Shown: positions 11,282 through 39,641, counted from the stretch's first letter. The stretch is DNA of 64,000 nucleotides from Gordonibacter sp. Marseille-P4307 (GCF_900604965.1 NZ_UWPD01000001.1:698642-762641); one strand, 5' to 3'. A program made the numbers and translations. Notes: generated by a model not told the origin, from the letters alone.

Positions 11282-11392
11282 CTTCCTCGCTTTTTGACGG
11301 GAAAAGATGCCGATGACGTGACTGCGCCGCGGATCATGCGGGATAATGGCGCTTGTCTGTTGGTGGGCAAGCGCGAAGGGAAGCGAGCGACT

Positions 11393-12265: not shown

Positions 12266-12295
12266 GCACGCAGCAATTCAAGGAGCAGTTCGAGC

Positions 12296-12883
12296 ATGAG
12301 TCAGCGCAACCCTCTCAACGAGCGTTACACCACTGAAGACAGGATGGGAAAAACGCGCAAAAGCGCCGCATCGGCCAAGCCGGCGGCCAAACGCGCAGCG
12401 ACGGTGCGTTCGGCACCCCAGAAAACGAAGAAGGAGAAGCGCGCCGAGCAGCGCGAACGCGAACGCAAGGCCGATGAGAAGCGCTATCGGGCCCAGCGGG
12501 ATCTGTACAACGTGCCCACCGAAGAGTACAGGCGGCTCCGTCGCACCTGGTGGATCGTGCTGGTGGCGGCCGTTGCCTGCACGGTTCTGTCGTTCGCCCT
12601 TTCTGCCGTTTCGGGCCTCGAGACCGTCTCGACGGTGTTTTTGGTCGTGGGATACGCCCTGATCCTGTTCGCTCTCTACATCGATTTCGGGAAAACCCGC
12701 AAGCTGCGCAAACAGTACGCCGCCCAGGTTGCGAAGAACAAGTCGAAGGCCGTCCGAGCTGAGCAGAAACGCGCCCGCGCTGAACAGCGCGCCCTCGAAT
12801 CGGAGGCGAAAGAGAATCCCGAGGGTGCGGCAGGCGAGGAGCCCCGGGGAAAGGGCGTGTTTTCAAAGCTGTTCAAACGATAG
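12296..12883 (+). CDS. Small membrane protein with basic tails
   Basis: A 195-aa protein I cannot assign. The first 75 residues are very rich in Lys, Arg, Ala and Glu, then two hydrophobic helices (about 84-105 and 112-130) separated by a short loop, then another Lys/Ala/Glu-rich, coiled-coil-like tail. Both tails would sit in the cytoplasm with a hairpin in the membrane. The ATG follows AAGGAGCAG, 30 nt after purC, so it is likely in the purC transcript. A terminator follows. Similar short proteins sit beside housekeeping genes in actinobacteria; function unknown. Confidence 0.7.
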   Translation: MSQRNPLNERYTTEDRMGKTRKSAASAKPAAKRAATVRSAPQKTKKEKRAEQRERERKADEKRYRAQRDLYNVPTEEYRRLRRTWWIVLVAAVACTVLSFALSAVSGLETVSTVFLVVGYALILFALYIDFGKTRKLRKQYAAQVAKNKSKAVRAEQKRARAEQRALESEAKENPEGAAGEEPRGKGVFSKLFKR

Positions 12884-23959: not shown

Positions 23960-25843
23960 ATGCGCTGTTGCGCTCAAGAAGGCTCGTCGGCCCATATCGC
24001 GCTTCGACGTGCCGTTTCCCTTGTCATCGCCTGGGCGCTTGCCTTTTCTTCGATCTCCCTTTCCTTTGCCGAACAAGGCACGCTTTCGCCCGGATCCGGC
24101 GAAAGCGGGCAACCGGTTGAGGATCCGGCTCCCAAGGTTGCCAACGTCGTCATAGTTTTGCGCAATACCAATACCGATCTTGGATCCGCGCTCAACCCGA
24201 ACCATACCGTGAAGGAGATCACCGCTAAGGGCGGAACGCTCGAGCTGGACAGCCTTATGTACTGGACGACGGGCGATGAGTCGCGCAACCACCCTTCGGT
24301 CGAGTGGTTTACAAGCGATCCATCCATAGCCACCGTGTACGGGGGCGTGGTGAGCGCCAAGAAGAACGGCACGGTATACGTCTGCGCGCGCGTGAGCGCG
24401 AACACCGATGGAGGGCAGCCTATAACGGCATCCGCTCAGATCGAGGTCAAGGGCCAAGACGATGCCCGTTACGTGACCGCGCTGCGCATCATATCCCCCG
24501 ACGGGCGAGATGTGACGAACGAAAACTACGAGTGGGAAGAATCGTACTCTACAGCAAAAGCGCAGTTCAATGCCGAAATAGATGTATTCGATCCGTCTTC
24601 TGGCTCTTCGACCACTTACTCGACCGTCCAGGGTTCTCTCTCATCTCAGGCACCTGACCTGGGAGATCTTTCGTGGTCGCTTACCGACGCGAGCCTTGGG
24701 GCAGTTGATCCGACGACAGGTTTGTTCCGTCCGCGATCCTCGACGGTCGTGGGGCTTCAGGTGCTCTCCCTCGCTGGGTTTTCGGGCTCTGTCGTCTCGG
24801 CTGTGACTTCGGTGCGCTGCAAAGAGCCGGGGGAGATTCAGCGCAACGGGTTCAATCCCCAGGAAACGTTCACCATCAAGGCGTATTACGAGGAGCATCC
24901 CTACGATGTCTACGGAGACGAGGCTCTCGCTGTAGACAAGACCTACTCGCTTGCCGACATGGAGGGGCTGGCCACGATGCGCGCCACCTACACCGCGTTC
25001 AACTCGTCTGATTACTACACGATGACGGGTCGGGGCGTCCCCCTTGAAAGCCTGCTTGTGAACGCGGGGATCAAACCGAGCGATATCAAAACGTTCGCAT
25101 TCGGAACCGGGGATTGGCCGGTGGGAGAGAACCGCCCGGTCACCGCCGATTTCGTTTTGGGAACGCGCTACTACTACCCCAACATCGATCTCGGTTCGGA
25201 TGTGAGGTTTTCCGGGGCGATCCCCGTCGAGCCGATGATCGCAGTCGAGAGCAACGAGCGCAAAGGCGGCAGCACCGACCCCGATTCCAAGATCGACATC
25301 GGAACGCGCTTTCGCCTGCTGTTTGGCTCGACTCCTGCAGGCGGCAGTACGTCTTACCAGATCAAATGGATAAATACGCTGTACGTCGTGTTGAAAGGCG
25401 CTCCTCCTTCGGAGCCGGGTAAGGGTCCCGGCATAGGCGGCGGCTCCCAAAACCCTGGCGGCGAAACGTCTGGGTCCGGATCGCCTGACGGACGATCAGG
25501 GTCTGACCTCGGTTCGGGTGTGCGGGGTATAGGCGGATCGTCTTCGCTCACCACGGTCGAGTCCGCCGGAGGCGATGAGCTTGCCAAGCAGGCTGCCGAG
25601 GGGTCTTTCGATGCGCAAGGGGACGTCGCCGGATCGGCTGCACCGCAAGGTGGGTCCGTCTCCCGCGTCTACCAGGTGAGCCTTGAGGATGCCGACGCTT
25701 CAACGGTGAGCGATGTGGTGGCTGCGCATCCCTTGAGGGCCTGGATCGCGCCGTCTGCCTCTTTGTTTCTCGTGATTGGATGCACCCGCATGGGTTGGTG
25801 GTATCGGCGTCAAACCCCGCGCTTCCGGGCGCGGGCGGTTTAG
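23960..25843 (+). CDS. Secreted surface protein with Ig-like domain and C-terminal membrane anchor
   Basis: A 627-aa exported protein. A signal peptide (residues 1-38, ending near SFAEQG) is followed by a Big_2-like Ig domain (about 65-165, core VEWFTSDPSIATVYGGVVSA), a second beta-rich region (170-290), a module of about 180 residues (303-480) with the motif GRGVPLESLLVNAGI, and a Gly/Ser/Pro linker (481-565). A hydrophobic helix at about 594-612 and an Arg-rich tail (WYRRQTPRFRARAV) would anchor it in the membrane. The 303-480 module resembles the C-terminus of the CWB2 protein two genes downstream. The next gene starts 17 nt later. I infer a ligand-capture role from the neighbouring importer genes. 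Confidence 0.75.
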   Translation: MRCCAQEGSSAHIALRRAVSLVIAWALAFSSISLSFAEQGTLSPGSGESGQPVEDPAPKVANVVIVLRNTNTDLGSALNPNHTVKEITAKGGTLELDSLMYWTTGDESRNHPSVEWFTSDPSIATVYGGVVSAKKNGTVYVCARVSANTDGGQPITASAQIEVKGQDDARYVTALRIISPDGRDVTNENYEWEESYSTAKAQFNAEIDVFDPSSGSSTTYSTVQGSLSSQAPDLGDLSWSLTDASLGAVDPTTGLFRPRSSTVVGLQVLSLAGFSGSVVSAVTSVRCKEPGEIQRNGFNPQETFTIKAYYEEHPYDVYGDEALAVDKTYSLADMEGLATMRATYTAFNSSDYYTMTGRGVPLESLLVNAGIKPSDIKTFAFGTGDWPVGENRPVTADFVLGTRYYYPNIDLGSDVRFSGAIPVEPMIAVESNERKGGSTDPDSKIDIGTRFRLLFGSTPAGGSTSYQIKWINTLYVVLKGAPPSEPGKGPGIGGGSQNPGGETSGSGSPDGRSGSDLGSGVRGIGGSSSLTTVESAGGDELAKQAAEGSFDAQGDVAGSAAPQGGSVSRVYQVSLEDADASTVSDVVAAHPLRAWIAPSASLFLVIGCTRMGWWYRRQTPRFRARAV

Positions 25844-25859
25844 TGAGGAGTTGAGGGAG

Positions 25860-28800
25860 ATGAGGGAATCCCGAGGTCGGCATGCGCGTCAGGACGAGCG
25901 CGTCCCGAAAAGCTTGCGGAAAGGCAAGCGCGCTGCGGCGACTGTCGCGGCCGCGGTTGCCCTCGCCGTTTGCATCCCGGCAGTGTGGGGATTCGCCGCG
26001 AACGTGATCCCTCAGTACGGATGGTACACTTCCGACCCCTCGGCAGACACGTTCGTTATCACGAATGCGGGGGAATGGAAGGCGCTTTCGGCGCTAGTGA
26101 ACGGTAAGGCCGATACCAATGGAGACGGGCGCCACGATTCTGCGGATGCGCCTGCCCAAACGTTCGAGGGCAAAACGGTGCGCCTCGCCGCCAATCTGAA
26201 CTTTCTCGGCGCGCCCGTCGAGCCTCTCGGAGGCCGCGATGGTACGCGGTTCGACGGTGCGCTTGACGGCGACGGCCACACCGTGATGGACGCGACTATC
26301 GACGCCGGCTCTTCAACCGAGAACATTGGCTTGATCGGCGAAGCGGGCCCCGCTTCTTCGATTGCCAACCTTGCCGTTTCGTCGAGCGTGTCCGTGAAGG
26401 TGTCGGTGGGCAAGGACGGCTCCCTCATCCGCAATGTGGGAGCGATCGTCGGCAAGACCGCAGGGTCGGTATCGAAGTGCTCGAGCAGCGCTTCGATCGA
26501 AGTCGCAAGCGGCGTCTCTCCTACCGCTCTGATGAAATTCCCTATCATGAACGTGGGCGGTCTCGTCGGCCAGGGGCTGGGCGACGTCGTTTCATGCGTG
26601 CATGCCGGTTCGCTTTCGGTGTCCGAAACCGGTTCCCCTTTGGCCGAGCTCGATCAGGCATCCATTGCGCTTAACATCGGCGGTGTGATCGGCAGTGCCG
26701 GTGAGGTGGACACTTCGGTGGACAGCGCTGCCGCCTCGATGCACGGAGAGGTGCGCGGCTGTTCCAACGCGGGCTCGATGCGGGTTCATACGCCCAGCCA
26801 GAACGGGCTCGATCGGTTCGGTCAGGTAAGTTATGCGCAGTCGTCGAACGTCGGCGGCATTGCCGGGTACAGTCGCGCGAGCATCTATGGTTGCTCCAAC
26901 GAGGGCGATATCGACGCCGAGCGCGCAGCGGGTGTGGCGGGAATCGTCGGATCCGAGCGCGCGCGCATTACCTCTCTGTCGTTTAACGGCAACTACTCCG
27001 AGGTGTCAAGCGACGATGGGAGGCAAGCCGACCCCATCGTCGTGGACGGGTGTTCGAACGCAGGTTCGGTGAAGGGTTTCGCCTTTGCGGCCGGCATCGC
27101 CGGACGGGCCGGATCCTACACCGCCATAAACGGCTGCGTGAATCGGGAAGATGCCTGGATCGCGGCGGTTCGCTGGAACAAGCCCTTCCCTGCGGGCATC
27201 GTCGGATCATCGAGCGGGAAAGTTACCTACTGCGCGAACGCGGGCAAAGTCGTGTCTGCCCGTATATTCGAATTCGGGGAGAACGGGGCGGCTCCGAAGT
27301 ATACGACGAGCGGGGGGTACTTTGCTTCGGGAATCGCGGGCAACCTCACGCATTTCATGGACAAGGAGGGCGTTCGCACGTCCCCGCTTCCCGAGATGTA
27401 CGGCTGCTATAACGTGGGCAGCGTTATGGCTCAGCAGAATATGCGCCAACGTGCGCTTGTGGGGGATAATTCGGGTATCGTCCATGATTGCCTAGCCCTT
27501 CAGGGTTGCGTGTCCACGGGAAGACTCGTATACGGCGACGGTCCGGGTGATACCGAGACCTCGGGCGGTACATCGTGGAACTGCCGCTTTGCAACGTCCG
27601 ACGAGTTGAAGGGCGTCGTCGAGCTGTCCGATTCGCAGGGAGCGAACAGCGTTTCGTGGCTCAACGAGAACATGGACGCGTCTGGCGGGACGACCTTCTG
27701 GGTGAAGGCACCCTCCTGGTATCCGGTTCTGAACTCCGCCGTAGACTGGGATCCGCTTGACATCTCGACGGCGACGGCTTCGCTCGAATCGAATGCCAGC
27801 TATACGGGCATCGAGTCGGTCCCGCGTGTGAAGGTGGTTTCTGCAAATGGTTCCGTCTTGCGGCAAAACGTCGACTATCTGGTAGTTCCTCAGGATGGGG
27901 CCGTCGAGGTATCTGGCGGTTCCGCTCCCTACGAAGCGACGGTTCAGGGTATCGGGAACTACTCCGGCACGCTGGCGAACAAGGTTTCCTACGGTATCGA
28001 TGCGGGCGATCTTGCCGTTTGCACGGTAACAGTCGATTCCAAGGTGTTCAATGCCGCTTGGCAGAAACCGGCCGATAACGGCGTGCGCGTGCTCAACGCG
28101 GCGGGCGGGGTGGTCGACCCGTCCGAGTACACCTTCAGGCTCGATCCCGACGACCAGCATGTCAAGGACGGGCAGGCGCAGCGAGCCGGGAAGTACAAGG
28201 TCATCGTCAGCGCCTCTGCCACATCAACCCATTTCGTCGGCACCAATAAAGAGGGGGTCTTCCCCATCAAGGTTGCCCAGATCTCGTGTCCCAAAGATGA
28301 TAAGGGAGGTAATTTCGCGCGGCCGACCAAGGTTTCGGCGGGCGGTGTCACCTACGATTGGTTCAGTTCCACCCTCAATCCGAATACCGAACCACAAAAG
28401 CTCAAAACTTTCGAGTATACGGGGCATCCCATCCTTCCGAAGGTCGAAGGCGTCGTTTTGACGGGTTCCACGGTCGAGGGTTCGGTCGATTTGGTCGAGG
28501 GGACCGATTACAGGGTGCTGTACGGTGCTCAGGTAGGCGACGACCCTACGCAGACCAACGCTACGACGAACAGCGGCGTTAAGGGAGGCTCGTCTGTGGG
28601 CTACGTCACCGTGCGCTACGTTGCGGGAGGGAATTACGGAAACTACGAGGTTATGCGCTTCCGCGTGGTGGACACGCCTGCGAAAAACGATCTCTCTCAG
28701 GCCGATGTTGCGGGCGACGGGGACGTTGTGTTCGAAGAGGGCGTCGATCAGTACCGCCCCATCAGCCTCAGCTTCGCCGGCTCCAAGCTCGAAGAGGGAG

Positions 28801-30485
28801 CCGACTATTCGATCGAGTACCGCAACAACGACAAGCCCGGCACGGCGTCGTTCACGGTAACCGCGCTTCCCGACAGCGAGTTCACCGGGTCTCTATCCGG
28901 GGAGTTCAAAATCCTAGCCGAAGATCCCTACGTTTTGGATTACTCCTTCGACGAGGCGAGCAAGACAGCCTCGGTCACTGGCTTGCGGTACCGGGGCACC
29001 AAGGATTCGTTCGATCTGGTTATCCCCGACAAGGTCGAACGAGGGGGCACCGTCTATGCGGTGACGTCTATCGCCGAGGGGGCTTTCGGGTCGTCTAACG
29101 TGAACAAAGTTCCCGAAGATGCGGGCAAGATCGCGTCGGTTTCGATTCCGGCATCCGTAGAGTCCGTCGGCGCGTATGCGTTTTGCTCGGCCAACCTTGC
29201 CGGCGGGCCGGTATCCGGTCTGTCGAAGGTGACGTTTGCCGAAGGTTCTCGCCTCAAGGTGATCGGGAAGGGGGCGTTCGAGAAAACCTCGATCGAAAAC
29301 CTTACCATTCCCGCTTCGGTTGCCTCGATCGAGGAAGCGGCGTTTGCGAAGAACGAGAAGCTCTCGTCGGTCACGTTCTTGTCGGTCGACCCGGTCGCGC
29401 CGACGTTTTCAACCAAGGCCTTTGCGGGTACGACCGGGGTTAAAGCCCGGGTGAGCGTCAAGGCGACAGGGCTCATCAGAGCTCTCGAGCCGCTGGTTGC
29501 GAATCAATCGTGGAAGATCGACGTAATCGATGGCCCCCAGGACCAGGGCTGGAAGCGCTTGGCGGGAGCTACCGCGCTCGACACGATGAACGAGATCGCG
29601 ACCGAGGCGTTCGATTCGGCCGATACCGTGATTATTGCACGGGCAGATGGGTTTCATGATGCGCTGTCCGCAAGTGCGCTTGCGGGTGTCTTCAAGGCCC
29701 CCATCCTCATGACCGATACCTATGATCTATCAGAGCAGACTGCGTCCGTCATCAGGCGGTTGCGTCCGAATCGTGCCATCATCTGCGGTGGTGAGGCGGC
29801 TGTTTCCGATCGGGTGGGGTCTCGGATCACGGCACTGGGGGTCGATCGCGTCGATCGCGTGGCTGGATCTGACGCCGTCGAGACCGCCAATGCCATTTCG
29901 CGCGAAGTTCGTGCGAGCGCCCAGGGAGCGTCTTCGTCTCGCACGTTCGTGGTCGCCACGAGCAGCGGCTTTCACGATGCTCTATCCTCGGCTCCCTATG
30001 CCTATGCCACGGGTTCGCCTATTTTTCTAGCGAACCCGTGGAACGGGGCTCTCGATGACACGACGCTGGCGGCAATCAAGGAGGGCGGGTTCACGCGCGC
30101 GGTGATCGCGGGCGGTACCGCCGCTGTTGATGGGCGGGTCGAGGACCAGATCAGGGTCCTGGGCATTTCCGACGTCGTGCGAAAAGCCGGGCCGTCGGCT
30201 TACGAGACCTCGGTCGAGCTTGCTGCCTGGGCCTGCTCCGAGGGCCTGTCGGCCAACAGGATGGGCGTCGCTACGGCCAAGGGATACTACGACGCGCTAA
30301 CCGGGGCCGCTTTATGCGGAAAGTTCGGATCCGTTCTGATCCTGGCCGACGAGGGGTATGATTCCTATGCCATCGAGCGCTTCGTCGCCTTGCACAGCGC
30401 TGAAATATCGCGCGGATACATCTTTGGCGGTACGGCCGCCGTTGCTTCGTCGGTTCAGTCCGATCTTGAGGCGGCGACGAGCTGA
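25860..30485 (+). CDS. Giant CWB2-anchored surface protein with GLUG-like and BspA-like repeats
   Basis: A 1541-aa exported protein. A basic signal peptide (about 1-48) leads to a region (about 80-550) with at least five GLUG-like repeats of the form GGIxGxxxxxxxxCxNxGxV. Residues about 640-1045 hold tandem beta-sandwich domains with G-x-G-N-Y-x-G-T motifs. Residues about 1067-1180 are BspA-like leucine-rich repeats (SIPASVESVGAYAF, TIPASVASIEEAAF). The last 312 residues are three CWB2 repeats, recognisable by WKRLAGATALDTM, RAIICGGEAAVSD and RAVIAGGTAAVDG. CWB2 repeats bind anionic wall polymers. I chose the ATG at 25860, after GAGGAG; an upstream in-frame ATG overlaps the previous gene. Adhesin or ligand-display roles are possible. 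Confidence 0.83.
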   Translation: MRESRGRHARQDERVPKSLRKGKRAAATVAAAVALAVCIPAVWGFAANVIPQYGWYTSDPSADTFVITNAGEWKALSALVNGKADTNGDGRHDSADAPAQTFEGKTVRLAANLNFLGAPVEPLGGRDGTRFDGALDGDGHTVMDATIDAGSSTENIGLIGEAGPASSIANLAVSSSVSVKVSVGKDGSLIRNVGAIVGKTAGSVSKCSSSASIEVASGVSPTALMKFPIMNVGGLVGQGLGDVVSCVHAGSLSVSETGSPLAELDQASIALNIGGVIGSAGEVDTSVDSAAASMHGEVRGCSNAGSMRVHTPSQNGLDRFGQVSYAQSSNVGGIAGYSRASIYGCSNEGDIDAERAAGVAGIVGSERARITSLSFNGNYSEVSSDDGRQADPIVVDGCSNAGSVKGFAFAAGIAGRAGSYTAINGCVNREDAWIAAVRWNKPFPAGIVGSSSGKVTYCANAGKVVSARIFEFGENGAAPKYTTSGGYFASGIAGNLTHFMDKEGVRTSPLPEMYGCYNVGSVMAQQNMRQRALVGDNSGIVHDCLALQGCVSTGRLVYGDGPGDTETSGGTSWNCRFATSDELKGVVELSDSQGANSVSWLNENMDASGGTTFWVKAPSWYPVLNSAVDWDPLDISTATASLESNASYTGIESVPRVKVVSANGSVLRQNVDYLVVPQDGAVEVSGGSAPYEATVQGIGNYSGTLANKVSYGIDAGDLAVCTVTVDSKVFNAAWQKPADNGVRVLNAAGGVVDPSEYTFRLDPDDQHVKDGQAQRAGKYKVIVSASATSTHFVGTNKEGVFPIKVAQISCPKDDKGGNFARPTKVSAGGVTYDWFSSTLNPNTEPQKLKTFEYTGHPILPKVEGVVLTGSTVEGSVDLVEGTDYRVLYGAQVGDDPTQTNATTNSGVKGGSSVGYVTVRYVAGGNYGNYEVMRFRVVDTPAKNDLSQADVAGDGDVVFEEGVDQYRPISLSFAGSKLEEGADYSIEYRNNDKPGTASFTVTALPDSEFTGSLSGEFKILAEDPYVLDYSFDEASKTASVTGLRYRGTKDSFDLVIPDKVERGGTVYAVTSIAEGAFGSSNVNKVPEDAGKIASVSIPASVESVGAYAFCSANLAGGPVSGLSKVTFAEGSRLKVIGKGAFEKTSIENLTIPASVASIEEAAFAKNEKLSSVTFLSVDPVAPTFSTKAFAGTTGVKARVSVKATGLIRALEPLVANQSWKIDVIDGPQDQGWKRLAGATALDTMNEIATEAFDSADTVIIARADGFHDALSASALAGVFKAPILMTDTYDLSEQTASVIRRLRPNRAIICGGEAAVSDRVGSRITALGVDRVDRVAGSDAVETANAISREVRASAQGASSSRTFVVATSSGFHDALSSAPYAYATGSPIFLANPWNGALDDTTLAAIKEGGFTRAVIAGGTAAVDGRVEDQIRVLGISDVVRKAGPSAYETSVELAAWACSEGLSANRMGVATAKGYYDALTGAALCGKFGSVLILADEGYDSYAIERFVALHSAEISRGYIFGGTAAVASSVQSDLEAATS

Positions 30486-30500
30486 CACTCAGCTGTTTTT
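30480..30500 (+). terminator. Weak terminator after the giant surface protein
   Basis: AGCTGA, including the stop codon, pairs with TCAGCT around a CAC loop and is followed by GTTTTT. The stem is only 6 bp, so read-through into the next gene is likely. Confidence 0.5.
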
Positions 30501-30552
30501 CCTGCGATGTGCAGGTTATGCAGATAATGGAAGCTTTACGGAAGGAGAAGGA

Positions 30553-32160
30553 ATGTACAAGAAGGCAACATCGTTGCGCGGCCGCATAGCAGGTGCGGTC
30601 TGTGCGCTGGCGATGGGTGCGTGCGTTTGGGGCGTTGCGTCGCCTGCGCAGGCATACGCAGATGACGAGGTGTTCTCTGACACCTGGGAGCGCCTTGCGG
30701 GTCCCATCGCGTTGGATACGATGAAAGAGATCGCCAACGAGGGATGGAGCGAGGGTTCGGAGTACGCCGTGGTCGCTACGGCCGACGGGTACTGGGATGC
30801 GCTTTCTGCGAGTGCTGTGGCGGGGCTTCACAACGCTCCGATCCTCATGACCTCGACCAAGTCTCTGTCCGATCAGACGAAGGCGGCGCTTGCCGATCTC
30901 AAGGTCAAGAAGGTTATCCTGTGCGGCGGCGAGGCGGCTGTCTCCGATGACGTGAAAAAGCAGATCGAGGCGATGAACATCTCGGTCGAACGCGTGTCGG
31001 GAGCCGATGCGATCGAAACTTCCGTCAAGTTGGCGGACAAGCTGGGAGACGAGCACGGCGAGACCTGTCTGATAGCTACGAACGCCACGTTCCAGGATGC
31101 GCTGGCATGCGCTCCGTGCGCCTACACGCACACGGGTGCGGTGTATCTGGCAGACGGTTCGACTTTGAAGCTCACCGACCAGGCGCTTGAGTCTATCAAG
31201 GCAGCGGGTTACAAAAAGGCGGTCATCGCAGGCGGCACCGCAGCTTTGTCCGATGAGGTGGAAAAGCAGCTCAAGGGCATCGGCGTCACTCCGGTGCGCA
31301 AAGGCGGGGCGACGTGCTACGAGACCGCGACCGAGCTTGCTTTGGGCTTCGAGCTTGAGTACGACATGGGTCTTTCGAATATGGGGGTTGCCACCGGCCA
31401 GGGTTTCCATGACGCTCTTGCCGGTGCGGCCCTGTGCGGCAAGAAGGGCTCCGTGCTTGTTCTGGCTGACGAGCGCAACTCCGAGGCGGCTTTGAAGTAC
31501 CTGGGTAAGGACGCTCAGTCCGTCGTCATTCACGGGTACATCTTCGGCGGCGAGGCTGCTGTTGAGAAAGAAGTCAAGGACGAGATCAATAAAAAGGCTC
31601 CGTTCTTCAAGGTGTACCGCACCACCCGCGCCGGCGAGTTCACTTCTGCCCTTTTGAACAAGGCTGATTTCATGGGGCTCAAGTCGGACAGCACGGCTCC
31701 CCAGTCCGGTATGTATTACAAGAACGGCGGTTGGAACGTGACGACGGCAGCGACCTATGTCACGCTGGACGATCTGTTCAAGGCGGCCGGCGAGGCCTTC
31801 GCCACTGCGTGGAAACCCGGTGCCACACTTGTCTATGAAGGAAAGGGAAGTACCCGCACTCAGAGACACACGTTCGAGGAGGTGACGGGTGGTAAGTTCT
31901 TCCCTAAAACCGTGAAGGGCGAAGGTGTCGTTGATGGCGCGGTCGGCGTGGTTCCGTGTCTTTCGCTGACGTTTGCCAAGGGAGCGGTTGCCGAGGGTTC
32001 GACTGCGGGAGACGCCCAGGCGGCCAACGTGGCCAAGGCGAACGACAAGGCAAGCCCCACGATCCTGTTCGGCATTTCCGATCAGGAGGCGACGTCTAAC
32101 GATGCTGCAGGCATGAAATACTGGAACAACGTGCGTGAGCTGACCATCGAGGTAGCGTAA
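30553..32160 (+). CDS. CWB2-anchored surface protein with a C-terminal module
   Basis: A 535-aa exported protein. The signal peptide (1-36) ends in SPAQAYA. Three CWB2 repeats (about 38-355) follow, with WERLAGPIALDTMKEIA, KVILCGGEAAVSDD and KAVIAGGTAALSDE. The C-terminal module (about 356-535) shares with the first surface protein a buried-Ser/Thr then D/E-x-L-L/F-x-x-AG motif and an ending of the form LLFG...KWINTLYV (here ILFG...KYWNNVREL). The ATG at 30553 follows GAAGGAGAAGG, a strong site. The N-terminal wall anchor and C-terminal module suggest it presents that module to a ligand. It is followed by two large hairpins and the importer genes. Confidence 0.82.
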   Translation: MYKKATSLRGRIAGAVCALAMGACVWGVASPAQAYADDEVFSDTWERLAGPIALDTMKEIANEGWSEGSEYAVVATADGYWDALSASAVAGLHNAPILMTSTKSLSDQTKAALADLKVKKVILCGGEAAVSDDVKKQIEAMNISVERVSGADAIETSVKLADKLGDEHGETCLIATNATFQDALACAPCAYTHTGAVYLADGSTLKLTDQALESIKAAGYKKAVIAGGTAALSDEVEKQLKGIGVTPVRKGGATCYETATELALGFELEYDMGLSNMGVATGQGFHDALAGAALCGKKGSVLVLADERNSEAALKYLGKDAQSVVIHGYIFGGEAAVEKEVKDEINKKAPFFKVYRTTRAGEFTSALLNKADFMGLKSDSTAPQSGMYYKNGGWNVTTAATYVTLDDLFKAAGEAFATAWKPGATLVYEGKGSTRTQRHTFEEVTGGKFFPKTVKGEGVVDGAVGVVPCLSLTFAKGAVAEGSTAGDAQAANVAKANDKASPTILFGISDQEATSNDAAGMKYWNNVRELTIEVA

Positions 32161-32289: not shown

Positions 32290-33465
32290 ATGAGCCTGAT
32301 TGAGCGACGTTTCGTCGGAGGGGCGCCGTCCGTTTTCGGCGCGCAGATGACCCGACGCGGCTTCATTCGGGTTGCCGGGGCGGCAACGCTGGCGGGAGCA
32401 GCGGCTCTGACGACGACGGGTTGTCGATCGAAGGAGGGCGATGCGTTTTTCCGCGGCGAGCGCGAGATCGTGGACGACGCGGGCAGGAAAGTGGTCATCC
32501 CCGTTCCCGACAAGCTCCAGCGGATCTATTACACGAGTGCTTTGGCTCAGGTGTGGGTGTTCACGCTCGACCCCTCGAAGCAGGGCGGTGTGAGCTTCCG
32601 CTTCACACCCGAGGAACTGCGCTACCTTCCCGAAGGAACCGATAAGCTTATGTACATGGGATCGCTTTCGGGCGGCGGCGAGCTTGATCGTGAGCAGCTT
32701 CTCGCCCAGGATATCCAGCTGATCTTCTCCATAAGCGGCATCGCTCTTACGGCTTCCGACATATCCACCGCCAACGATCTCCAGAAATCGACCGGCATCC
32801 CCGTGGTGTGCGTGGACGGGTCGTTCGAAAACGTTGCGAACGCATACCGCTTCGTCGGGGATATCATGGGGGCGGGCGATCGCGCCGAGGAGATTGCAAG
32901 CTATCTCGAAGGAATCTACAAAGATGTGACCGGTGCGCTATCGGGCGTGCGCGACGAAGACCGGGTGAGTCTGTACTACGCAGAAGGCCCGTTCGGCCTG
33001 GCCACCGAACCCGATGTATCGCAGCATGCCCTCACGTTCGAGGTCGCGAGGGCGCGCAACGTAGCGGCGGTCGAGGCGGTTTCCGGTATCGGCATGTCGT
33101 CGGTCTCGCTCGAGTCGGTGATCGCGTGGGATCCCGAAGTGATCGTGGCTTGGGATGACGTGATCAGGGGTGGAGCCGATGAGATCATCCGCACCGATCC
33201 CGCCTGGGCTACCATCCGAGCCGTCCGCGAAGGGCGCGTGTACACGATGCCCAATGCGCCCTTCGCGTGGTGCGACCGCCCTCCTGGGGTCAACCGCTTT
33301 TTGGGAATACAGTGGGTGGCGAACATGCTGTACCCCGATCTGTACCCGGTCGACATGCTCGAAGAGACCAAGGAGTTCTACCGCAGGCTCTACTGGGTCG
33401 ATATTGGCGATGACGATGCCCGCGCCCTCCTGGGAAACAGCTATCCTCCGTACCGAAAGGCGTAA
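32290..33465 (+). CDS. Metallophore/heme/corrinoid ABC transporter binding lipoprotein (BtuF/FepB-like)
   Basis: A 391-aa class III substrate-binding protein. The N-terminus has a twin-arginine motif TRRGFIRVAG (22-31) and a lipobox ending in TTGC (Cys45), so it should be exported by Tat and lipidated. The mature part has the two-lobed fold: DDAGRKVVIP (start of lobe 1), YMGSLSGGGELDREQLLAQDIQLIF, and lobe 2 with LESVIAWDPEVIVAW and the WCDRPPGVNRFLGIQW region. These are typical of iron-siderophore, heme or cobalamin binders. The ligand cannot be decided. The ATG at 32290 follows AGGGGAG. It leads a tight operon with channel, permease and ATPase genes. Confidence 0.88.
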   Translation: MSLIERRFVGGAPSVFGAQMTRRGFIRVAGAATLAGAAALTTTGCRSKEGDAFFRGEREIVDDAGRKVVIPVPDKLQRIYYTSALAQVWVFTLDPSKQGGVSFRFTPEELRYLPEGTDKLMYMGSLSGGGELDREQLLAQDIQLIFSISGIALTASDISTANDLQKSTGIPVVCVDGSFENVANAYRFVGDIMGAGDRAEEIASYLEGIYKDVTGALSGVRDEDRVSLYYAEGPFGLATEPDVSQHALTFEVARARNVAAVEAVSGIGMSSVSLESVIAWDPEVIVAWDDVIRGGADEIIRTDPAWATIRAVREGRVYTMPNAPFAWCDRPPGVNRFLGIQWVANMLYPDLYPVDMLEETKEFYRRLYWVDIGDDDARALLGNSYPPYRKA

Positions 33466-33471
33466 CCACCG

Positions 33472-34269
33472 ATGAACTCCCTGTACGATTCAACCTACCT
33501 TCCCGACATCCTGCACGATATCGCGCAGGGCCTTTTGCTCCCGACTATGATCATCATCGTCGTGCTTCTCGCGACGACCCTGATCGTTTTAGGCGAACTG
33601 GTTGTCGAGACGCTTTCCGAGCGTCGGCACTACCGTCGCAACATGCCTCTGATCGTGAACGAGATCAACAATGCGCCTTTCGACAGGGTCGATTCGGTGG
33701 TGGAGGGAAGCGGCCTTTTGATCAAGCAGAAGGCGGCCTTGCTCACGATCTCTCGCAACATGGGCCTTCCCGAGGATGCGCTGTTTTCCTTAGCTCAGAC
33801 CCAGGTGAATAAAGTCGATCATTTCTACAAGCGGCGCATTGCCGTAAGCGACGTGATTTCCAAGATCGGTCCCATGCTGGGTCTGATGGGAACGCTTATC
33901 CCCCTCGGTCCGGGCATCGTGTCCCTGAAAGACGGAAACACCGCCCTTCTGGCCCAGTCCCTCAACATCGCTTTCGATGCGACGGTATGCGGTCTGGTCT
34001 GTGCGGTGGCTTCCCTGATCGTATCTAAGATCCGTGCGGGATGGTACGCCGACTACGTCGAGTCGGTCGAATCGATTGCCACGTGCATTCTGGAGAAAGC
34101 GTCCCAAGCGCGCGCGGAAGGAGAGGTTTTACCCTCGAACTACACCGGCGATGCCGAGAAGGAGCTGCAACGCGCCGCCGGCTCTCGGGACATTCGGGCT
34201 TCCGAGCCGGATCTTGTCGATACGCCCCGGTCTTCGAAGGATTCAGAGGAGGTTTCATATGGCGCGTAG
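33472..34269 (+). CDS. MotA/TolQ/ExbB-family proton channel protein
   Basis: A 265-aa inner-membrane protein with three hydrophobic helices (about 20-45, 127-150 and 157-185), the ExbB/TolQ layout. The family signature is KIGPMLGLMGTLIPLGPGIVSL, followed by LNIAFDATVCGLVCAV in the third helix; a cytoplasmic domain lies between helices 1 and 2. The C-terminal 50 residues are polar. ExbB/TolQ proteins form the stator pore that uses the proton gradient. It starts 6 nt after the binding lipoprotein gene and overlaps the next gene by 11 nt, so it is part of the importer operon. In a monoderm there is no outer-membrane TonB receptor to serve, so its target is unknown. Confidence 0.88.
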   Translation: MNSLYDSTYLPDILHDIAQGLLLPTMIIIVVLLATTLIVLGELVVETLSERRHYRRNMPLIVNEINNAPFDRVDSVVEGSGLLIKQKAALLTISRNMGLPEDALFSLAQTQVNKVDHFYKRRIAVSDVISKIGPMLGLMGTLIPLGPGIVSLKDGNTALLAQSLNIAFDATVCGLVCAVASLIVSKIRAGWYADYVESVESIATCILEKASQARAEGEVLPSNYTGDAEKELQRAAGSRDIRASEPDLVDTPRSSKDSEEVSYGA

Positions 34270-34687
34270 TTTTCGCACAAGCGGGTTTCGTCGCTCGTTT
34301 GCGATGGACGAGGATGTGAACCCTTCGGCCTATATCGTCAACCTTGCCGACTGCATGCTCGTTTTGGCCTGCGGTTTCCTTGTCGCTTTGGTAGCGCGCT
34401 TCAATCTCGATGTAAGCGCTCCCGAAAAAATCGATACTTCGGAGATGACCGAGGTAGCTCCGGAGACGATCGAAGAGGAGATCGTGTCGGGAGATGGATC
34501 GTACTACATAGATGCAGGGCGCGTGTACCAGGATCCCGAGACGGGCAACTTGTATCTGGTCCAGTCCGACTCGCAGACCGGATCGACGGGCGGGACAAGC
34601 GGCTCGAGATCGTCGGCCAATGCAGCCGATTCATCTTCGCGCTCTTCGTCTTCGGCGATCGATGCCCGTGCGAATGGGGCTGATTGA
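34259..34687 (+). CDS. DUF2149-type, ExbD/TolR-like small membrane protein
   Basis: A 142-aa protein with one transmembrane helix at about 26-46 and an external domain. The helix begins IVNLADCMLVLACGFL, in which Asp31 sits in a D-x-M-L-V-L context just like the proton-relay Asp of ExbD/TolR (IDVMLVLL). The external part (about 60-105) has YQDPETGNLYLV; the last 35 residues are Ser/Ala-rich and probably disordered. I assign DUF2149 from memory of the family; genes of that family pair with ExbB-like genes in archaea and actinobacteria. It has a strong site, AGAGGAGG, and overlaps the ExbB-like gene by 11 nt and the permease gene by 1 nt. Confidence 0.72.
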   Translation: MARSFRTSGFRRSFAMDEDVNPSAYIVNLADCMLVLACGFLVALVARFNLDVSAPEKIDTSEMTEVAPETIEEEIVSGDGSYYIDAGRVYQDPETGNLYLVQSDSQTGSTGGTSGSRSSANAADSSSRSSSSAIDARANGAD

Positions 34688-35805
34688 TGGGTTTTCGCAA
34701 TCGTGCCACCCGCATCGAGGCGGCGTTTCCTGCAGGTCTTCCATCCGATGAAGAACAGGGGCCGTCCGAGGTTTCGGTTCGAGAAGCGTTCTGTTCTCGC
34801 GTTTCGTTAACGGCGCGGATCGCCATACCCGTTGCAGTGGTCGTGGCTTTCTTCCTGTCGTTTATGATCGGGAAGTTCCCGTTGACTCCGGTGGAGGTGG
34901 TGCAGGGTGTCATCAACAACCTCCAGGGAAACGTCGAGGACCTCGAGGCGGTGAAGGTCGATAACGTCTTGTTCTCGATCCGTTTCCCGCGCATCCTCGT
35001 AGTCATGCTTGTCGGGGCTGCTTTGGCGGTGGCGGGTGCGAGCTATCAGGGGATGTTTCGCAATCCGCTCACGTCGCCCGATCTTTTGGGGGCCTCGGCA
35101 GGCGCGTCGTTCGGAGCTTGTCTCGCGCTCCTGTTCAACCTATCGGGCGAGTACGTGCAGCTGTTCGCGTTTTTCGGTGGGATGGTGGCGGTCGGGCTGG
35201 CGGTAACGTTCAACCGCGCGGTCGATTACGATCCGACCCTCAGTTTGGTTCTTGCGGGCATCTTGGTGTCCACCCTTTTTCAGGCGGGTACGTCGCTTGT
35301 GAAGTTCATGGCCGATGCCAACGATAAGCTTCCCACCATCACCTTTTGGCTTATGGGATCGTTCGCCCAGATCAATAGCGGCGATCTTATTGCTTGCCTC
35401 GCACCGATGGCGCTTGGTTTCGCGATTCTGCTGACCCAGGCATGGAAGCTCAATGTGCTGTCGTTTGGCGAAGAGGAGGCTCGCTCCATGGGGGTGAACA
35501 CGCGACGTACGCGTCTTCTGGTCATCTTCGCCGCGACGCTCGTTACGAGCACGGCCGTTTCGGTGGCGGGTATCATCGGGTGGATCGGACTTGTCATACC
35601 CCATTTGGCGCGCGCTCTCGTGGGTCCGAACTACAAGATCCTCCTTCCTGTATCGATGGTCGTGGGGGCGACGTACCTGCTGTTGGTCGACGACATCGCG
35701 CGCATGCTTGCGACGGTGGAGATCCCCATCGGGATCCTCACGGCGATTCTGGGTGTTCCCTTCTTCGTTCTTATATTCAAGAACAGCATGGGCGGATGGA
35801 GGTAG
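34687..35805 (+). CDS. FecCD/BtuC-family ABC transporter permease
   Basis: A 372-aa permease with about ten helices after a polar N-terminal stretch of about 35 residues. Family motifs are FPRILVVMLVGAALAVAGASYQGMFRNPLTSPDLLGASAGAS-like sequence (residues about 100-140), GEEEARSMGVNTRRTR (coupling loop to the ATPase), GIIGWIGLVIPHLAR and GVPFFVLIFKN at the end. It would move an iron-siderophore, heme or cobalamin across the membrane. The ATG overlaps the stop of the DUF2149-type gene by 1 nt (TGATG). Confidence 0.94.
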   Translation: MGFRNRATRIEAAFPAGLPSDEEQGPSEVSVREAFCSRVSLTARIAIPVAVVVAFFLSFMIGKFPLTPVEVVQGVINNLQGNVEDLEAVKVDNVLFSIRFPRILVVMLVGAALAVAGASYQGMFRNPLTSPDLLGASAGASFGACLALLFNLSGEYVQLFAFFGGMVAVGLAVTFNRAVDYDPTLSLVLAGILVSTLFQAGTSLVKFMADANDKLPTITFWLMGSFAQINSGDLIACLAPMALGFAILLTQAWKLNVLSFGEEEARSMGVNTRRTRLLVIFAATLVTSTAVSVAGIIGWIGLVIPHLARALVGPNYKILLPVSMVVGATYLLLVDDIARMLATVEIPIGILTAILGVPFFVLIFKNSMGGWR

Positions 35806-35806
35806 C

Positions 35807-36610
35807 ATGGCGGCTTTGGTCGAAGTGCGCGATCTGCGCTGCGGGTACGGCAGGGGAGTCAGGCGCGTGGAGGTGGTTCATGGCGTGTCGTTCGATCTGG
35901 ATCCGGGTGAGTTCGCGTGCATCATCGGAGCAAACGGATGCGGAAAGACCACCACGCTTAAAACCATGATGGGGCTTCAGGACAAGCTGGGGGGAGATGT
36001 GCTCGTGGCGGGAGAGGACGTGTTCTCGCTTTCCGACCGCCAGCGTGCGCAGAGGTTCGCCTACATACCTCAGGCCCATACGCCCCCGTTTCCCTTCTCG
36101 GTGTCGGATGTGGTGATGATGGGGCGCACCCCCCATCTAAACCGTTTGGCCCGACCGGCCGATCGGGATCGAGAGGCAAGCGCGCGCGCCCTCGAGGTGC
36201 TGGGGATCGAGAACCTGGCTTCGCGCATATACACGCAGCTTTCGGGAGGGCAGCGCCAGATGGTGCTCATAGCTCGCGCCCTGGCCCAGGAAGCCGAGGT
36301 TTTGGTTATGGACGAACCCACCGCATCGTTGGACTTCGGCAATCAGCAGCTCGTGCTTTCCTGCATGCGCATGCTTTCGGATATGGGCAAGGCGGTTGTC
36401 ATGGTCACCCATGATCCCGACCATGCCCTGTATTGCGCCGACCGAGTGATGGTTATGGAAGAGGGTCGCTGCATCCGCACGGGGACGGCGCAGGAGTGCA
36501 TCACGACCGATATGCTCGCACGGATATACCGCACCGACGCCCGCGTCATCGATATCGAAGTGGAGCCGGGCCGCATCGAGCGCGCCTGCATCCCCGTTCT
36601 TCCGCGTTGA
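35807..36610 (+). CDS. FecE/BtuD-family ABC transporter ATP-binding protein
   Basis: A 267-aa ATPase. Walker A is GANGCGKTT (about 43-51), the Q loop is YIPQAH, the signature is LSGGQRQ, Walker B is VLVMDEPTASLD and the H loop is VMVTHDPDHA. It is the energy subunit of the FecCD permease encoded 1 nt upstream; GGATGGAGG precedes its ATG at 35807. The combination with a BtuF-like lipoprotein gives a complete importer of the type II fold. It is the last gene of the operon before convergent dlt genes. Confidence 0.95.
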   Translation: MAALVEVRDLRCGYGRGVRRVEVVHGVSFDLDPGEFACIIGANGCGKTTTLKTMMGLQDKLGGDVLVAGEDVFSLSDRQRAQRFAYIPQAHTPPFPFSVSDVVMMGRTPHLNRLARPADRDREASARALEVLGIENLASRIYTQLSGGQRQMVLIARALAQEAEVLVMDEPTASLDFGNQQLVLSCMRMLSDMGKAVVMVTHDPDHALYCADRVMVMEEGRCIRTGTAQECITTDMLARIYRTDARVIDIEVEPGRIERACIPVLPR

Positions 36611-36744: not shown

Positions 36745-36933
36745 TTAGAAGTTATCGTAGACGAACTGCACCGGGGCATTGAGGCCCGAGAACACCAGCA
36801 GCCACACGATGAGAAGAGTCCCGGCTGCGACGAACGCCCCGGCACCCAGCGCTACGACGAGGGGATGGGTGTTCGCAAACCCCTCAACGATCTGACGGAC
36901 TCGCGCAATGGGGTGGGTGGGTTTTCTAATCAT
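36745..36933 (-). CDS. dltX: DltX-like small membrane protein
   Basis: A 62-aa protein with one transmembrane helix (about 27-50) and the C-terminus QFVYDNF. Small Dlt-operon proteins of the DltX family end in a conserved F-I-Y-N-E-F-type motif whose Tyr has been proposed as an acyl carrier between DltB and teichoic acid. The Tyr and both Phe are present here, and the last four residues are replaced conservatively (V for I, D for N, N for E). Its ATG overlaps the dltD stop by 8 nt. In Firmicutes dltX is usually first, before dltA; here it is last. It is the last gene of the operon. Confidence 0.72.
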   Translation of the reverse strand: MIRKPTHPIARVRQIVEGFANTHPLVVALGAGAFVAAGTLLIVWLLVFSGLNAPVQFVYDNF

Positions 36934-38209
36934 CTCCGTTGATCGCTTTCAGATCGGCTTCGGAAAGCCCCTCGGCTTCTCCGAAGGAACCGCCGCCGAG
37001 GAACGCATCGTCGCGGTCGTTGATGAAGCTGTAGATGGCCTTCTCGATGCGAACCCATCCCACCCAGCCCGGATGGGTCATGTCGCACAGGAAGTACTTC
37101 TCGTATTCGCAGCTCGAGAAGTCGGCATAGGGGTATCCGGCTTCGTTGCAGATGGCGCGGACGCGCGCGTAGTAGCCTTGGCGCTCTTCTGTCGTCACGT
37201 TTTGTCGGTCGTACCACGAGCCATGCACGGGAAGCATCACGACGAGCGGCTCCCATCCGCATTCTCTGCATACCCGCATGAAGGAGCGCAGATCCTCGTA
37301 CTCGCGATCGGCTTGGCTGAATGTTTCGTCCTTCTCGCTGTTCAAAGGTGCTTTCTGGGTGAAATAGCTGTTGTAGACGCCGTACTCGTTGTTAGTGCAT
37401 TTCGCTTTTCCGGCAGTGCGGCCCTGTTCCATCAGTGCGTTCCAATCGGGCTCGACCGGGGTCGTGGACTCCCGACGTTCGGCCGTCTTGTAGGGCGCAT
37501 CGGCGTTCAGCCATCTGATCTGCCTGCGCGCATTCAGCTCGTTGCCGAAGGTGAAGATCCGGTCATTCAGCTCGTCGATGAACGTGTCTTTGTTCGCCGC
37601 TGCGAGCGAGGTTTTGTCGATGCCCAGTTCCCCCAGCCTTTTGCGCACGTAGGCCTTCGTTTCCTCCGAGATGTTGGGGTTGTCGCAGAATTGGCGGTAC
37701 AGCTCGTAGGAGAAGATGCGCTTGAAGGCCCACTGGGCCCCGTTGCCCTTGAAGAACCACTGGGGCGACAGGATCAGCGTGATCTTCTTCTTCGGCGTGG
37801 TTCCGTCGTAGGCTCCCGCAGCGATCGCCTGCCACAGGCTCTGGTCGAAGGCGGTTCCCACAAACGTCATGTCAACGCCAGTGTTGTGTTCGCCGAACAC
37901 GGCGGCCGGTACGGTGGGTACGAGGCTTTTCGGCGTGGAGAACTCCGACGATCCGAAGGCAAGATAGGAGTTCGGCGACATGTTCTGCGTGACGAAGGAC
38001 GGGTAGCGAGACCGGATATCCGAATAGAGGTAATCGTACAGCTTCCGATCGTCGGCCTTTCCCAGACCGGGCAGGATTGCGCACAGCCCCCCGACCGCCA
38101 GCGCGGCGGCAAGCAATCCGCCCAGCACCGCGCGTAGGAGCCTCGTTCCGCTTTTTGCCTTCTTTTTGTCGCAAGCGGCTTCGTTGGTGGGATCGATGTG
38201 CGCTCGCAT
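36926..38209 (-). CDS. dltD: D-alanine transfer protein DltD
   Basis: A 427-aa protein with an N-terminal signal anchor (about 24-46) and an extracellular SGNH-hydrolase-like domain. The catalytic Ser lies in LAFGSSEFS, and the C-terminal Asp/His pair in LCDMTHPGWVGW. DltD passes D-alanine to lipoteichoic acid outside the cell. The ATG at 38209 follows the dltC stop by 2 nt. About 427 residues is typical. The N-terminus starts MRAHIDPTNEAACDKKKAK, a polar cytoplasmic tail longer than usual. Confidence 0.9.
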   Translation of the reverse strand: MRAHIDPTNEAACDKKKAKSGTRLLRAVLGGLLAAALAVGGLCAILPGLGKADDRKLYDYLYSDIRSRYPSFVTQNMSPNSYLAFGSSEFSTPKSLVPTVPAAVFGEHNTGVDMTFVGTAFDQSLWQAIAAGAYDGTTPKKKITLILSPQWFFKGNGAQWAFKRIFSYELYRQFCDNPNISEETKAYVRKRLGELGIDKTSLAAANKDTFIDELNDRIFTFGNELNARRQIRWLNADAPYKTAERRESTTPVEPDWNALMEQGRTAGKAKCTNNEYGVYNSYFTQKAPLNSEKDETFSQADREYEDLRSFMRVCRECGWEPLVVMLPVHGSWYDRQNVTTEERQGYYARVRAICNEAGYPYADFSSCEYEKYFLCDMTHPGWVGWVRIEKAIYSFINDRDDAFLGGGSFGEAEGLSEADLKAINGDD

Positions 38210-38211
38210 TG

Positions 38212-38466
38212 CTACAACCGCGCTTCTACCTGGGAGATGATCAGATTGACCGTGTTCATTTCCGTGCGCGCCACCTCGGTGGGGGCGATGGATACGCCGA
38301 AATCGTCCTCGATGCGCACCAAAAGCTCTACCGCGGCCATCGAGTCCAGCAGTCCGAGTGCGAACAGGTCCTCGTCGCGATGGGAAAGCACCGCATCGCT
38401 CTCGCATACCTCCTCAAGCAAATCGAGCATGCGGGATTCGAGTTTTTCACGAGAGATGTCGGCCAT
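38212..38466 (-). CDS. dltC: D-alanine carrier protein DltC
   Basis: An 84-aa acyl-carrier-like protein. The phosphopantetheine Ser is in LGLLDSMAAVELL (about residue 42), the DltC/ACP site. Flanking helices match the four-helix carrier fold (EEVCESDAVLSHRDEDLF and ISQVEARL). It accepts D-Ala from DltA and hands it to DltB. It is 2 nt from dltB and dltD, so the operon is tightly coupled. Site is DSM, as in many DltC proteins. Confidence 0.93.
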   Translation of the reverse strand: MADISREKLESRMLDLLEEVCESDAVLSHRDEDLFALGLLDSMAAVELLVRIEDDFGVSIAPTEVARTEMNTVNLIISQVEARL

Positions 38467-38468
38467 GG

Positions 38469-39632
38469 TTACCGTCCTTTCAAAAGTACTGATATCTGTC
38501 CGGAGAACAGGGCGAACCCGAGCATCACCAACTGGATGGTGACGATCCACGAGAGGACCTTGTACCAGGTTCTGTCCTTGTTCTTCTTGTAAAACGACGA
38601 TTTCTTCTGGTAGAGCTCGCACAGCGCCAGAAGCGCGCCATGATACGCCCCGTACGCGAGGTAGTTCGGCGTCAGCCCGTGCCAAGCGCCCATCAGCGTC
38701 ATGTTCACCAGGTAGCCGCACAGCGACGTATGCAGCCTCTTCTTGAACAGCTTGCGCTTCATGGATGCGCGGGCGAACCGCATGAACACGAAGTCGCGCA
38801 ACCAGAAGGAAAGCGTCATGTGCCAGCGGTTCCAGAAGTCCTTGATGTCAACGGCGATGAAGGGCGCGCGGAAGTTGCGGGGGGTTTTGATGCCGAAGCA
38901 CCAGCTGGCTCCGATGGCCATAAGGCTGTATCCGGCGAAGTCGAAGAACAGGTAGAACCCGTATACGTAAGCCGTTTTCACCTGCAAGAACAGCTCCCAG
39001 AAAAAATCTGCGGTTCCCCAGGGGGCAAGCGAGTAGCTCTTGTACATCAATCCTGCGATGAACAGCTTGTACACCAGACCGGCGACGATAAGCAAGATGC
39101 CGCGGGCAAGCATGCCGGCGTATTCGTCTTTCGGGCGCACCGCGTGGGCGTCTTCGAGGAATCGGCGGCTGCGGTCGATGGGACCCGAGGTGAACGTGGG
39201 GAAGAACACGAGGAAGGCGAATGTGTCGAGCGGGGCCATCCGATCGATGATGCCGTCGTGTATCTCAAGCACCATCTGGACGGATTTGAACGTCAGGTAC
39301 GAGATGCCCAGAAAGCCCAGAAGGCTTTGGTCGAAGACGGCGCTTACCTTGTATACGATCAGCGGAGCCAATGCAAGGGAAAGCGAAACCCAGAAACGCT
39401 TCTTCGATGCGGGGCTGCGCAGGAGCCACTGGATGCTTGCGCACGACAGGGTCAGATAGCAGGCAGCGTAGAACCCTTCGAGCGGGGTCTTGCAGAACAG
39501 GCAGGCTATCAGAATCACCGACGCGACAGCGCCGTAGCGTCCGAGCGGCTTTTCGGCCAAGCCCAAGACGGCGGCTGGGATCACGGCTGCAATCAGCAGG
39601 ATGAAGAAACTGGGATCCGCGTAAAACGACAT
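38469..39632 (-). CDS. dltB: MBOAT-family D-alanyl transfer protein DltB
   Basis: A 387-aa membrane-bound O-acyltransferase with about ten helices. The catalytic His is in MTLMGAWHGLTPNYL, and the second conserved His is in DFWNRWHMTLSFWLRDFVF. SGPIDRSRRF and FFDFAGYSLMAIG are further MBOAT marks. It channels D-Ala from DltC across the membrane. Length matches DltB. It lies 9 nt from dltA. Confidence 0.95.
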   Translation of the reverse strand: MSFYADPSFFILLIAAVIPAAVLGLAEKPLGRYGAVASVILIACLFCKTPLEGFYAACYLTLSCASIQWLLRSPASKKRFWVSLSLALAPLIVYKVSAVFDQSLLGFLGISYLTFKSVQMVLEIHDGIIDRMAPLDTFAFLVFFPTFTSGPIDRSRRFLEDAHAVRPKDEYAGMLARGILLIVAGLVYKLFIAGLMYKSYSLAPWGTADFFWELFLQVKTAYVYGFYLFFDFAGYSLMAIGASWCFGIKTPRNFRAPFIAVDIKDFWNRWHMTLSFWLRDFVFMRFARASMKRKLFKKRLHTSLCGYLVNMTLMGAWHGLTPNYLAYGAYHGALLALCELYQKKSSFYKKNKDRTWYKVLSWIVTIQLVMLGFALFSGQISVLLKGR

Positions 39633-39641
39633 GCGCCGGTC

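Follow-up and report, generated by a model that had tools for sequence, protein, structure and literature searches.

What an ExbB-type proton motor does in a bacterium with a single membrane is the question raised by a locus of Gordonibacter sp. Marseille-P4307 (GCF_900604965.1 NZ_UWPD01000001.1:698642-762641; these 64,000 nucleotides as a whole are called the window). A five-gene set at 32290-36610 encodes an ExbB/TolQ-family channel subunit and a DUF2149 protein together with the components of a FecCD-type importer. The usual rationale for proton-driven ExbB motors is that they energise an outer membrane that is otherwise unenergised. The observations described below support the presence, in a monoderm, of an ExbB/DUF2149 motor that is free of TonB and encoded next to a FecCD-type importer, and its conservation in both Coriobacteriia and Clostridia. 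Our preferred reading, held at somewhat less than an even chance, is that the system uses the proton-motive force to capture and import a pterin-type metal cofactor (most likely molybdopterin, tungstopterin or a close relative) into a single-membrane bacterium. The five genes are as follows:

32290-33465, plus strand: substrate-binding lipoprotein (substrate-binding protein, SBP); Peripla_BP_2 match at 4e-14, Tat-type (twin-arginine translocation) signal, lipobox TTGC.
33472-34269, plus strand: ExbB/TolQ-family proton channel subunit; MotA_ExbB (PF01618) match at 1.5e-9, over the cut-off.
34259-34687, plus strand: DUF2149 protein in an ExbD/MotB/HmuV-like position; PF09919 match of 31.1 bits against a cut-off of 27.1.
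34684-35805, plus strand: FecCD/BtuC-family permease; FecCD match at 5e-87.
35807-36610, plus strand: importer ATP-binding cassette (ABC) ATPase; ABC_tran match at 5e-29.

All five had been named in an earlier reading of the same DNA (the original prediction), and Pfam matches bear out their location and identity. They are separated by gaps of -11 to +6 bases, and the importer set is complete in the window, with permease, ATPase and Peripla_BP_2 SBP. The Tat-type lipoprotein signal of the SBP reads RRGF...TTGC, provided that translation starts at 32347. Scans of the window for promoters and terminators gave results at or under the shuffled expectation, so the boundaries of the operon are not established.

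The host was correctly assigned to the actinobacteria: the window lies within a 1.8-Mb genome of Eggerthellaceae type, a family that includes Gordonibacter. A DltD gene (teichoic-acid D-alanylation) is found directly downstream of the operon, as expected for a monoderm. The dlt-like cluster seen there (36926-41189, minus strand) is convergent with the operon; DltD was recognized by Pfam and the remaining genes by reading. The cluster fits a monoderm envelope that contains teichoic acid. The predicted lack of an outer-membrane receptor was confirmed, as the domain of TonB-dependent receptors (PF00593) was absent from the window's genome, TonB itself not having been searched for. Among 138 Eggerthellaceae genomes, PF00593 was found in two, one of them under the family cut-off. 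A match to a TonB-dependent receptor (1e-16) lies in an Eggerthellaceae metagenome bin (G114:C107:7584-8435), possibly because of bin contamination.

Conservation was examined in 43 neighbourhoods of the host family, 80 named loci and the 138 Eggerthellaceae genomes; labels beginning with L denote loci and those beginning with G denote genomes. The 80 loci were drawn from a scan with at least 576 stretches encoding relatives, and those kept are mostly from Coriobacteriia and Clostridia. DUF2149 adjoins this ExbB in 76 of the 80. The DUF2149 protein has one transmembrane (TM) segment with an invariant aspartate, Asp31, within N-L-A-D-C-M-L-V-L; the position given by the original prediction was correct, and D is found in 53 of 53 homologues. 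A C-terminal G-x-VYxDPxTG-x-x-Y-x-V segment is also conserved (alignment A4). The ExbB-like protein carries the hallmark P-x-LGLMGTLIPLGPG, a conserved GLMGT...AFDxT motif and invariant columns that include T141 and T171, and it matches MotA chains of the PDB at 7e-5. Sequence homology between DUF2149 and ExbD was not shown, as Pfam and NCBIfam return DUF2149 alone or nothing; the likeness to ExbD, TolR and MotB is an analogy of common placement and TM aspartate.

When the surroundings of the motor were examined in 47 well-flanked loci, a sulfite-oxidase-like (SO-like) surface protein was found within 8 kb in 36, and FecCD in 16 only. The proposed tight link between motor and importer is not supported by this comparison: the importer is an optional part of motor loci. 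The original prediction had named, as what would undo it, DUF2149 neighbours that were mostly unrelated to importers; this turned out to be half the case, the constant neighbour being the surface protein. Its suggestion that the motor acts on surface capture proteins is probably right. Across the 138 family genomes, the SO-like domain accompanied DUF2149 in 21 of 30 genomes and occurred in 1 of the 108 others at E<=1e-10 (p=9e-17); at E<=1e-3 the figures were 26/30 and 16/108. A C-terminal anchor, detected with a tail score, was present in 55 of 67 SO-like proteins whose genes adjoin the motor, compared with 8 of 54 encoded elsewhere (p=4e-14). Some of those encoded away from the motor end in S-layer-type repeats, as judged by eye. 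In Clostridia, a common gene order is FecCD-ABC-SBP-[anchored SO-like protein]-ExbB-DUF2149-[small SO-like lipoprotein]. In other actinobacteria, the motor partner is a secreted CobN-like protein with a signal and a C-terminal TM segment. A CobN/HmuS-type partner was ruled out in the window's family, where the CobN-like chelatase domain (PF02514) was found in none of the 138 genomes; the assignment holds for those other actinobacteria. A common rule appears to be that one extracytoplasmic, cofactor-type head with a C-terminal TM tether is encoded beside the motor.

Other arrangements were seen in individual loci. In G180, an actinobacterial genome that lacks CobN, ExbB-DUF2149 is followed by a gene for a secreted protein of 1062 aa (L092, 7288-11709), which is C-anchored, contains FmdE domains (PF02663) and shares a 'RAYEV' juxtamembrane motif with CobN-type partners. 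In Syntrophomonas, Pelotomaculum and Desulfoscipio (L155, L157, L159 and L180, around 10000-12800), an energy-coupling factor (ECF)-type importer follows the pair and replaces FecCD; it consists of two ATPases, a T-like protein and an S component, which in L155 is of PF09819. The second Gordonibacter copy (L112, 7928-8938; L114, 7930-8940) has a 336-aa 'IDDTD' protein, without Pfam match, between SBP and ExbB. In Clostridium ljungdahlii (L162, 3875-6275), a ModA-like molybdate-binding protein, identified by reading, is encoded directly 5' of ExbB and two tandem DUF2149 genes.

In the window, the partner was found in a region that the original prediction had overlooked. Its five genes stand, and the co-directional cluster starts about 8 kb upstream of them, with three surface-protein genes at 23960-32160:

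23960..25843, plus strand: proposed motor partner, 627 aa; A3 profile 122 bits, E 5e-36; genome search 135.8 bits.
25776..30485, plus strand: large surface protein, open reading frame of 1569 aa (likely start near 25860); identified by Pfam and family clustering.
30358..32160, plus strand: CWB2-anchored surface protein (likely start near 30553); CW_binding_2 match at 2e-40.

The 23960-25843 protein is made of an N-terminal signal, a Big_2-like region and a domain of sulfite-oxidase/PruR-like fold, as we also call the SO-like domain (aa 303-484), followed by a juxtamembrane strand, 'SRVYQVSL', a hydrophobic anchor and a basic tail. The A3 profile of the SO-like domain was made from other species only, without the window sequence. 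In the 25776-30485 protein, Pfam recognizes LRR_5 of BspA type and three CWB2 repeats for cell-wall binding; the protein clusters with the c2 group of surface proteins found beside the motor in relatives. The C-terminal ~190 aa of the 30358-32160 protein scored 54.5 bits with an iterated SO hidden Markov model, and a divergent SO-like domain is possible there. It did not match the independent A3 profile, and its structural model (pLDDT 80.7) had no Foldseek match; its candidacy as a second SO-like protein was left unproven.

SO-like domain sequences found no match in the PDB at E<=1, so the fold call rests on a predicted structure. An AlphaFold2 model of the domain from a relative (L157) had a pLDDT of 95.8, and its top 16 Foldseek matches were sulfite-oxidase-family chains throughout. 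VIA-align against the PDB placed PruR first (Z 12.2/11.6/11.5), followed by sulfite oxidases; differences in Z below 1 are ties, and PruR is level with them or slightly ahead. The window partner matches the same SO-like profile. No conserved cysteine column that could provide the molybdenum ligand was found in 109 non-redundant SO-like domains, and a pattern search detected a Tat-like motif in none of 147 signal-bearing members. SO-like proteins are therefore unlikely to be cofactor-loaded enzymes, and the head is better read as a predicted pterin-binding receptor fold.

The genetic context of relatives suggests the molybdenum and tungsten cofactors (Moco and Tuco) as possible ligands. The Moco/Tuco riboswitch RF01055 lies directly upstream of genes of the motor loci L120, L141, L149, L150, L156 and L175. 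Exactly one RF01055 match over the cut-off was found in 7 of 40 host genomes, and in five of the seven (G521, G523, G539, G542 and G553) the lone riboswitch is directly 5' of SO-like genes; in G526 and C. ljungdahlii (G555), no SO-like genes of this kind lie directly downstream. The contig of G539 ends inside the SO-like gene that follows the riboswitch, and the riboswitch of G523 is located just downstream of the motor and 5' of further SO-like genes. All five lack the P3 stem, and Moco RNAs without P3 were assigned to the tungsten cofactor by Regulski et al. (PMC2408646). Those authors list P3-lacking Moco RNAs of Syntrophomonas wolfei 5' of 'putative sulphite oxidase enzymes' (PMC2408646), which may be secreted SO-like proteins of the present kind and not enzymes. 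Downstream of the lone riboswitch of G553 come three SO-like genes, then FecCD-ABC-SBP, and finally an anchored SO-like gene and ExbB; DUF2149 was not detected in this copy. Genes for an aldehyde ferredoxin oxidoreductase (AOR), MobB-FdhD, XdhC and xanthine dehydrogenase (XDH)-family enzymes lie nearby, and a ThiS-like protein is also found among the neighbours of riboswitch loci. In favour of a Mo/W cofactor as the ligand, G523, G537, G553 and G556 encode Mo/W enzymes, with neither MoaA nor MoaC found; the first three also have the riboswitch.

Sequence shows the genes and their conservation, the anchored partner and its fold, the co-occurrence and, in relatives, a context of riboswitches and Mo/W genes. 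A machine that would accommodate them can be proposed. Outside the cell, large wall-bound surface proteins would capture the ligand itself or a carrier of it. The secreted SO/PruR-type protein, C-terminally anchored in the membrane, would substitute for TonB. The motor, ExbB-DUF2149 with a proposed proton path at Asp31 of DUF2149, might pull or rotate this partner, and the mechanical work would strip a tightly held or protein-bound ligand that is then handed to the binding lipoprotein and imported by the FecCD permease and its ATPase. That the motor touches its partner, that it exerts force on it in a mechanical step, as by analogy with TonB, and what the ligand is are all inferred. A broader proposition, which we regard as possible and rather more doubtful, is that monoderms import a Mo/W pterin cofactor through a TonB-free motor and a tethered pterin-fold receptor and that, in general, ExbB-DUF2149 is a motor for C-tethered cofactor-handling proteins (heme, corrinoid, molybdopterin), with or without an outer membrane.

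Several observations weigh against a Mo/W pterin cofactor as the ligand. The window contains no RF01055 riboswitch, nor a cobalamin or other riboswitch. Its SBP shares only ~25-30% identity, around 27%, with the SBPs encoded at riboswitch loci, and MoaA-, MoaC- and ModABC-like genes are present in its host. Moco auxotrophy in the family was considered and found no support, as MoaC is present in 121 of 138 genomes, including the window's own. The genomes with Mo/W enzymes in which MoaA and MoaC were not found are mostly metagenome bins, so that the absence is suggestive only. In the SO-type genomes G527, G535, G557 and G558, no MoaC, MoaA or DMSO-reductase-family enzyme was found (AOR and XDH were not searched). 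PruR binds small reduced pterins, and its truncated pocket is reported to be probably too small to hold Moco (PMC13259868); the fold alone therefore does not give the ligand. Finally, in Emergencia timonensis (L124) two cobalamin riboswitches (4228-4422 and 8409-8600) stand over the ExbB-DUF2149 pair. This locus lacks an SO-like domain, and by eye its surface proteins are DUF4430/transcobalamin-like. It is possibly a corrinoid version of the same machine, and because its pair is under cobalamin riboswitches without an SO-like protein, one and the same module probably serves different cofactors. For the window, the ligand would be assigned by homology only; a salvage role alongside biosynthesis is possible, and so is a different pterin, or Mo/W itself, as the ligand.

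The original prediction had proposed a heme, corrinoid or metallophore importer, in which case the SO-like proteins would be generic surface domains. This we consider unlikely, and the window ligand is probably neither heme nor iron. The best named models for the permease are BtuC and F420-0 permease, and that for the ATPase is the corrinoid ATPase, all under their cut-offs; all named BtuCDF and heme models are in fact far below threshold (BtuC 218 against 461 bits, BtuF 16.6 against 234). The nearest solved relatives of the SBP are 4pag (1.6e-38), 4ovk and HI_1472 (3psa, 2e-13), which we take to be the molybdate-binding MolA of H. influenzae, with BtuF at merely 7e-4. The relationship to HI_1472 also counts in favour of the preferred reading. 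The Emergencia locus favours this explanation, as does the hmu operon of Bacteroidota, in which an ExbB-DUF2149 pair serves the uptake of heme (PMC12583661); the lack of CobN in the family, and the pterin fold and Moco/Tuco riboswitches of relatives, go against it. Rather less probable is an importer of inorganic molybdate or tungstate of MolABC type, with motor and SO-like proteins aiding metal capture. The kinship of the SBP with HI_1472 would fit, as would the fact that the Moco riboswitch also governs molybdate/tungstate uptake (PMC2408646) and that the riboswitches without P3 are of the proposed tungsten type. However, the host already has ModABC-like genes, an oxyanion needs no pterin-binding fold, in some relatives the module is combined with an importer of ECF type, a class that serves vitamins and cofactors, and bare metal would be useless to genomes without MoaA and MoaC.

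That PruR-like domains take up or sense another pterin (of folate or biopterin/monapterin type), or some small molecule of a different kind, is improbable to the same degree: it would agree with the ligands of PruR, the best structural match (PMC13259868), and with the SO-type genomes in which no Moco genes were found, but it leaves the recurrence of Moco/Tuco riboswitches and Mo/W enzymes without a reason. That surface adhesins are what the motor moves or displays, as in gliding or surface remodelling, beside a coincidental importer seems very improbable. Huge GLUG/Big_2/CWB2 surface proteins do recur beside the pair and FecCD is missing from many loci, but cofactor riboswitches lie upstream, and the FecCD-ABC-SBP-partner-ExbB-DUF2149 order is operon-like in many Clostridia. 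We give least credit to the notion that SO-like proteins are Moco enzymes exported from the cell, with the riboswitch controlling a cofactor user. Weak PF00174 matches and the reading of the S. wolfei copies by Regulski et al. (PMC2408646) would suggest so, but there is no conserved cysteine column, and lack of a Tat motif makes folded, cofactor-loaded export unlikely.

The preferred reading, motor-driven import of a pterin-type metal cofactor, has parallels in known systems. In the hmu heme operon of Bacteroidota, the ExbB-DUF2149 pair goes by the names HmuU/HmuV (PMC12583661, PMC13227078, PMC10434189); the original claim of an undescribed arrangement needs qualifying for the pair itself, and the monoderm, receptor-less version with pterin-fold partners does appear undescribed. 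Like the system described here, hmuYRSTUV serves cofactor acquisition and combines the pair with a C-anchored extracytoplasmic partner, HmuS, which has a C-terminal membrane helix (PMC13227078) and strips iron from heme (PMC12583661). In contrast, hmu is Gram-negative, with a TonB receptor (HmuR), a CobN-type de-chelatase partner and no FecCD importer in the operon, whereas the window system has no outer-membrane receptor, no CobN, a pterin-fold partner and an ABC importer. TonB-ExbB-ExbD also joins a channel to a single-TM subunit with an essential-type aspartate and acts on a third, tethered protein; the window lacks a TonB-dependent receptor, and its tethered protein is C-terminally anchored with its own binding domain. 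PruR of Proteobacteria shares the sulfite-oxidase fold, secretion and the lack of a Mo-ligand cysteine, but is a free periplasmic signal protein of ~170 aa paired with DcpA, while here the domain is tethered at the surface as part of multi-domain proteins encoded next to a motor and an importer. MolABC (H. influenzae HI1470-72) and BtuCDF have the FecCD-type architecture, and the SBP is related to HI_1472, but neither has a motor or surface proteins, and the window sequences are well under their named-model cut-offs. The Isd heme relay of Gram-positive bacteria works in a similar way, its wall-bound receptors handing their cofactor on to a lipoprotein and then an importer of FecCD type; NEAT domains stand in place of SO-fold domains, and there is no proton motor. 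In the literature available, we found no paper on a monoderm motor with pterin-fold tethered receptors, an optional FecCD/ECF importer and Moco/Tuco riboswitch control, and no described bacterial system for scavenging Mo/W cofactor from outside; the 'molybdopterin import cluster' of a Desulfitobacterium genome note is an annotation without evidence (PMC4511579).

One consequence is that the role of HmuU/HmuV beside HmuS becomes directly testable. If the ligand is Moco or Tuco, the system would be the first bacterial uptake route for that unstable cofactor and would bear on gut cross-feeding; worms take up Moco from bacteria (PMC9793310). Ton parts in monoderms have been dismissed as likely non-functional (PMC12204202). 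A widespread, conserved motor acting on a surface receptor in monoderm Clostridia and Coriobacteriia would change the usual view that such motors serve to energise an outer membrane.

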